Source: a virus. Taken from it: a stretch of DNA of 64,000 nt. The notes under the pieces are model-generated. The model had not been told where the DNA came from. It made no database searches and saw nothing but the letters and a program-made list of their open reading frames with translations. The stretch is taken from IMG/VR virus record IMGVR_UViG_3300045999_004281, positions 1 through 64,000 of that record. One strand, 5' to 3'. Below, in pieces: positions 54,121-54,356 of this stretch. Made by a program: the position numbers and the translations under genes. Position 1 is the first letter of the stretch. Each line of letters starts with the position of its first letter.

Positions 54121-54177
54121 AACAATACAATATATTATATATCTTATAAGAGAAGAAACAAACAAAATCAACAACTT
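54121..54177. other. AT-rich tract (possible unwinding element)
   Basis: About 57 bases with roughly one fifth G+C, including ATATATTATATATCTTATAA-like runs, between sequences of more than 50% G+C. It lies about 100 bases from the first DnaA box. It also contains several -10-like TATAAT and TATAAG words, so promoters cannot be excluded. Confidence 0.6.
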
Positions 54178-54278
54178 AGAGAGGGAGGTGCCTACTGGAA
54201 AGATATGCCAGCGACGGGGTTTGGCAATATTACGGAAATCGCCTTGTTAGTTATGAAAACTCGGGGTGTGTAATACTC

Positions 54279-54287
54279 TGTGGATAA
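54279..54287 (-). other. DnaA box 1
   Basis: TGTGGATAA, the exact complement of the consensus TTATCCACA. Confidence 0.65.
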
Positions 54288-54347
54288 GTGGGTGCGGAGG
54301 GGGTCAGAAAACGCGTCCGTCAGAGGAGAAACGCCCGCGTAGCTGCT

Positions 54348-54356
54348 TGTGGATAA
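54348..54356 (-). other. DnaA box 2
   Basis: TGTGGATAA again, same orientation, 69 bases after box 1. Confidence 0.65.

Follow-up and report, generated by a model that had tools for sequence, protein, structure and literature searches.

A candidate replication origin and early control region in an uncultured phage genome, with DnaA boxes particular to its lineage

We hypothesize that the non-coding gap at positions 53880-54911 is the replication origin of this phage together with an early control region, that initiation there would be carried out by the phage with the assistance of IHF, and that the DnaA boxes would be a lineage-specific addition; judged from the sequence, we give this reading about an even chance. 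An earlier note had already pointed to this place as a candidate replication origin. That proposal gains indirect support: the gap is kept in 34 relatives, it carries an AT peak, an IHF site and repeats in fixed order, and the genome encodes an initiator-type helicase; the boxes on which the proposal had been built, on the other hand, are not conserved. We found no published origin for such phages, and the HTVC027P transcriptome paper mentions neither an origin nor promoters. Having an IHF site and a named initiator, a conserved origin candidate of this kind would tell us how DNA replication begins in a large uncultured group, and also whether DnaA boxes are accessories that one phage family can gain and lose.

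The gap and its setting in the genome

The window, i.e., the whole stretch of 64,000 nucleotides that was analysed, covers bases 1-64000 of a viral contig of 65,818 bases. The contig end (64322-65818) repeats its start (1-987) in two pieces of ~93-94% identity, between which an extra GIY-YIG-like endonuclease gene, recognized from its translation, lies beside the capsid gene. This insert and the imperfect end repeat probably represent a strain variant and circular closure. Since the last 1.5 kb of the contig repeats its beginning, we probably have a complete genome of ~64.3 kb, circular or circularly permuted, closed via a strain variant. Among the encoded proteins are a large terminase and a portal protein, one protein of 2,358 aa, a DNA polymerase of family A, helicases of the SNF2 type and fused to a primase, and a nuclease of the PD-(D/E)XK kind; no integrase was seen among the proteins scanned, a scan that covered part of the genes. 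Megablast against phage records gave no match, the terminase matched only four contigs, from unrelated bins, when a host was sought in bacterial genomes, and the helicase search returned no close isolate of the phage family, the best being Pseudomonas phage Rollin at 29.5% identity.

Early genes run leftward, from ~55.8 down to 30.5 kb, and late genes rightward from ~56.2 kb. The gap, with 1,032 bp, is the largest non-coding stretch of the genome, and it is bordered by two leftward frames, gene A (53154-53879) and a small ORF (54912-55079). Gene A (minus strand, 241 aa) has conserved Cys/His residues (CVNPYH) and a weak endonuclease match, and is kept in the 34 relatives; gene B (55137-55826, minus strand), on the right flank, has no family match and is kept in relatives as well. 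A predicted intrinsic terminator (54869-54894, minus strand) would close the leftward gene B transcript before the gap, and a similar hairpin with a T-run is found at the gene B side in relatives. At the opposite side, a leftward sigma-70-like promoter, TTGACT-N17-TATGCT (53923-53951, minus strand), recognized by its consensus match only, probably drives early transcription of gene A; in most relatives, TTGACA/TANNNT sites occupy a comparable position ahead of this gene.

Relatives were sought in a viral collection with the large terminase and with alignments of genes A and B; gene A alone did not recruit any as a query. In all 34 distinct relatives with a complete A-B region the gap is present at the same place, with 0.8-1.4 kb. 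The closest of them, in a search that may pass over near siblings, has ~62% identity in gene A, and the conservation described here is that among relatives at this distance or beyond. Distant relatives that lack genes A and B have a primase-helicase ~41-46% identical and keep the layout, with different repeat sequences.

Conserved elements of the gap and a candidate initiator

The 57-base AT-rich tract described in the earlier note (54121-54177) is real: the 57-base AT maximum of the gap starts at 54124 and reaches 81% AT. This candidate unwinding element has an equivalent position in nearly all relatives, the maximum lying 209-345 bp from gene A in 34 of 35 gaps (455 in the exception, L109), and a conserved AT-rich element adjacent to the repeats is what an origin of the Rep/iteron type would have. 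A predicted IHF site, AATCAACAACTTA, follows at 54166-54178; it is the only plus-strand copy in the genome of the consensus WATCAANNNNTTR, which we took from the literature (PMC10380432). The relatives have AAATCAAGGACTTA or a variant of it at the same place and strand, directly to the right of the AT maximum, and it fits that consensus. Exact consensus matches in the 35 gaps amount to 24 forward and none reverse, with ~1.1 expected; 21 gaps have one, and the 14 that do not count against the origin reading. We had also considered the conserved AATCAAGGACTTA as a -35 element and rejected it, since the spacing to a -10 element fails in several relatives and the IHF consensus fits.

Further to the right, a repeat search found a core of repeat box 1, CTACCCCGTT (54629-54638), followed by two bipartite units, GGGCTGGCCCGTT...GGAACTACTATC (54663-54699) and GGGCTGGCCCGTT...CTATGCCGTT...GGAACTACTATC (54753-54804), all on the plus strand. 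In relatives the unit combines CTRNNCGWTNCT with RACTRSYATC a few bases after it, again further right than the IHF site. These repeats are strongly directional (forward to reverse, 69:1 for box 1 and 38:2 for box 2) and concentrated in the gaps, where 11 genomes have 17 combined units, compared with two in the 642 kb outside them; repeats that are direct, keep to one strand and do not occur beyond the region are a property of Rep/iteron-type origins. The order of AT-rich peak, IHF site and directional repeats is fixed across relatives. One extra copy of GGAACTACTATC is seen at window positions 43863-43874, shortly before the start codon of the DNA polymerase gene.

As candidate initiator we propose a 952-aa primase-helicase with a DUF927 domain (30499-33357, minus strand). 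Its helicase part matches SaPI Rep (8tch; E 9e-9) and SCCmec Cch (5dgk; E 2e-7), which places a putative initiator of the Rep/Cch helicase family in the genome itself, and it was found in 24 of the 26 relatives searched. Replication by SaPI Rep helicases begins at iteron origins (PMC7581432), and Rep/Cch helicases are self-loading initiators or related to them. We hypothesize that host IHF would introduce a bend at 54166-54178, next to the AT-rich tract, while the primase-helicase or a helper would recognize the same-strand bipartite repeats at 54620-54805; the primase-helicase would open the AT-rich tract and load itself, and the phage family-A DNA polymerase would extend. DnaA would not be the initiator of the family, its boxes between the IHF site and the repeats at most assisting the opening.

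Two known systems resemble parts of this arrangement. Iteron-plasmid origins are composed of an AT-rich tract, an IHF site, iterons and DnaA boxes that assist opening (PMC4980987), and those of the P1, F, R6K, pSC101 and RK2 type share with the gap an AT element, an IHF site, same-strand repeats and DnaA boxes in less than 1 kb. Initiation there, however, relies on winged-helix Rep proteins, which bring in the DnaB of the host, whereas the candidate here is a primase-helicase fusion, and the repeats of the gap are by comparison few, bipartite and irregularly spaced. The SaPI/SCCmec origins (Rep, Cch) share the DUF927/AAA+ helicase initiator and direct repeats near AT-rich DNA; in contrast to them, the gap has an IHF consensus site and DnaA boxes, and the binding of the repeats by the helicase is here a proposal. 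In those elements the helicase gene is immediately followed by the origin, whereas the phage gene is ~21 kb from the gap, a distance that, compared with the SaPI position right after rep, counts against the origin reading.

Cumulative GC skew, which the earlier note had suggested as a check, does not point away from the gap. Its minimum falls at most ~3.2 kb from the gap in 11 of 11 genomes, but it coincides with the switch in gene direction. Third codon positions showed no effect of replication arm on skew in the 11 genomes, nor did we find the switch in strand composition, independent of gene direction, that would be expected of a replication origin. We therefore dropped GC skew as independent evidence of an origin, since the minimum follows gene direction.

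DnaA boxes and alternative explanations

The two perfect, same-orientation DnaA boxes, TGTGGATAA, were confirmed on the plus strand at 54279-54287 and 54348-54356, 69 bp from start to start; they begin 102 and 171 bp to the right of the AT-rich tract and are the only exact copies in the 65,818-bp contig. The rarity claimed for such a pair also holds: dinucleotide shuffles of the whole window had a mean of 0.18 boxes and reached two in 1 of 100, and shuffles of the 1,032-bp gap had a mean of 0.0047 and reached two in 0 of 20,000, figures that overstate the surprise somewhat because the motif was chosen after the sequence had been read. The looser consensus TTWTNCACA occurs four times in the window against 2.1 expected, so that only the exact pair stands out, and no further near-box (up to two mismatches) was found around it. 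Two exact boxes of the high-affinity kind thus lie beside the AT-rich unwinding element.

Conservation of the boxes, which the earlier note had named as a check of its proposal, is largely missing. The exact box is absent from the gaps of 32 of 34 relatives, and the remaining two, L019 and L109, have one each at differing places (23 bp from gene A and 137 bp right of the AT-tract core motif, respectively). These two against 0.26 expected by shuffling are a mild excess (P 0.03), and neither exact nor near boxes were significantly enriched in the 300 bp to the right of the AT tract in relatives. In L005, the nearest alignable relative, the agreement ends with ...TACTCTGTG, after which the sequences diverge; the GTAATACTCTGTG before the first box is in common and the rest of the box is broken. 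Because nearly all relatives lack them, no enrichment is seen and the L005 box is broken, the boxes are not a family feature. The pair is unlikely by chance in this gap, but particular to this lineage.

These observations bear on what host DnaA might do here. That it is the essential initiator, acting at the two boxes, we consider improbable: the pair far exceeds what chance would place in the gap, adjoins the AT-rich tract and the IHF site in an orientation like that of oriC, and comes with the mild excess among relatives, but the conservation just described is against it, as are the lack of any near-box around only two boxes and the fact that the phage encodes its own initiator-type helicase and polymerase. 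The suggestion of the earlier note that host DnaA starts replication therefore keeps weak support. Same-orientation boxes match the left half of Escherichia coli oriC (PMC10380432), which like the gap has an AT-rich tract, then an IHF site and such boxes; oriC, however, has about a dozen boxes, with R1 between the AT-rich tract and the IHF site, whereas both boxes of the gap lie beyond the IHF site. A decoy similar to datA, titrating or inactivating host DnaA instead of starting replication, seems very improbable to us. Two boxes and an IHF site do lie within ~200 bp, and datA likewise combines DnaA boxes with one IHF site; but the minimal datA has three boxes with that site (PMC10380432), a particular arrangement of at least three being needed, and the gap, with too few boxes that relatives do not share, has the AT-rich tract and phage repeats alongside. 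It is a good deal easier to accept, although we would stop somewhat short of an even chance, that the boxes are a product of chance or drift with no function in this lineage, an explanation that concerns the boxes only and is compatible with the origin reading. The part of the gap that holds them aligns least well, and L005 has the flanking sequence without the rest of the box, but the gap shuffles and the common direction of both boxes speak for more than chance. Alternatively, their position between the IHF site and the repeats would suit a helper role, as in iteron plasmids, so that in this lineage the boxes are perhaps helpers. We would only tentatively, and with rather low confidence, extend the analogy to a virulent lineage that added host DnaA boxes to an origin assisted by IHF and run by its own Rep/Cch-type primase-helicase, so that the host initiator would help or time its replication, that of its relatives proceeding without it.

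Two further explanations concern the gap as a whole. It is unlikely, in our view, that it serves early transcription control only (promoter, dyad operators and IHF architecture), with replication starting elsewhere. IHF serves many promoters too, most relatives have promoter-like sites shortly ahead of gene A, and the dyads recur at a number of intergenic sites among the leftward early genes. However, the terminator and the directional repeats are 700-900 bp upstream of the gene A promoter, far for simple operators, and a conserved AT peak with a fixed IHF site and iteron-like repeats exceeds what a promoter needs. Nor do we find it probable that the gap is a pac site, whose directional repeats the small terminase would recognize to start headful packaging, even though the cosB of lambda likewise pairs repeats with an IHF site. 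The putative small-terminase gene (56196-57116) lies ~1.4 kb downstream of the gap, and the ends of complete-length contigs fall at many differing places, compatible with circular permutation. Repeat similarity also tracks the small terminase slightly better than the primase-helicase (Mantel r 0.48 and 0.39; partial, 0.29 and -0.01), a point that counts against the origin reading as well, since the repeats of a Rep/iteron-type origin would be expected to vary most closely with the initiator. On the other hand, gene B and a divergent promoter region stand between the gap and the terminase genes, and the contig ends that fall inside the gap are scattered and indicate no cut site; a packaging cut there, considered because G008 and other contigs end in it, was rejected on this ground. 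TerL-similar relatives without these repeats would also argue against packaging, but TerS has diverged in them too, so that their missing repeats do not discriminate.

Dyads and other motifs in and around the gap

The word TTTTTCTGTGTT (54064-54075, plus strand) is conserved, with five occurrences in the gaps of 11 genomes and none elsewhere on that strand. Repeat arrays take other forms in some genomes: of the distant relatives without genes A and B, L046, L038 and L045 each show a pair of direct repeats with GAACTGGTA at the end, L046 also retaining AAAATCAAGGACTTA, and the gap of L063 (5232-5763) holds an iteron-like array with nine TAWTGTTATG on one side and five inverted CATAACAWTA on the other.

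We rejected a structured RNA as an explanation of the repeat region. Its predicted folding did not stand out from shuffles in most tests (z -1.3 to 0.9 on both strands; one value of -2.9, for the plus strand of L005), and an Rfam scan gave no match within the gap. Elsewhere in the window, the Rfam int-alpA RNA (RF02996) was found at 33370-33436 on the minus strand, directly upstream of the primase-helicase gene, and again in the helicase loci of L175 and L184. This RNA is known from integrase/alpA neighborhoods; in the window it adjoins a replication gene and a small HTH protein.

The dyad AACAACCCGACAGCGTGTCGGAATGTT (54502-54528) is one copy of an intergenic family, AACAAACCGACA-N3-TGTCGGTTTGTT, that recurs at window positions 44555, 50538, 52166, 53133, 54502 and 55822, and more weakly at 48749 and 51661, mostly between leftward early genes. 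Its CGACA-N-TGTCG symmetry is preserved in relatives by paired changes (CGACA/TGTCG, CAACA/TGTTG), and the element is likely an operator or a bidirectional terminator-like element. L038, L046, L063 and L080 have another dyad, TAACA-N2-4-TGTTA, with 7-14 copies in the 8 kb upstream of the terminase and no copy in the 6-9.5 kb that start with it. The dyad sequence thus differs by lineage, as though it changed together with a putative binding protein.
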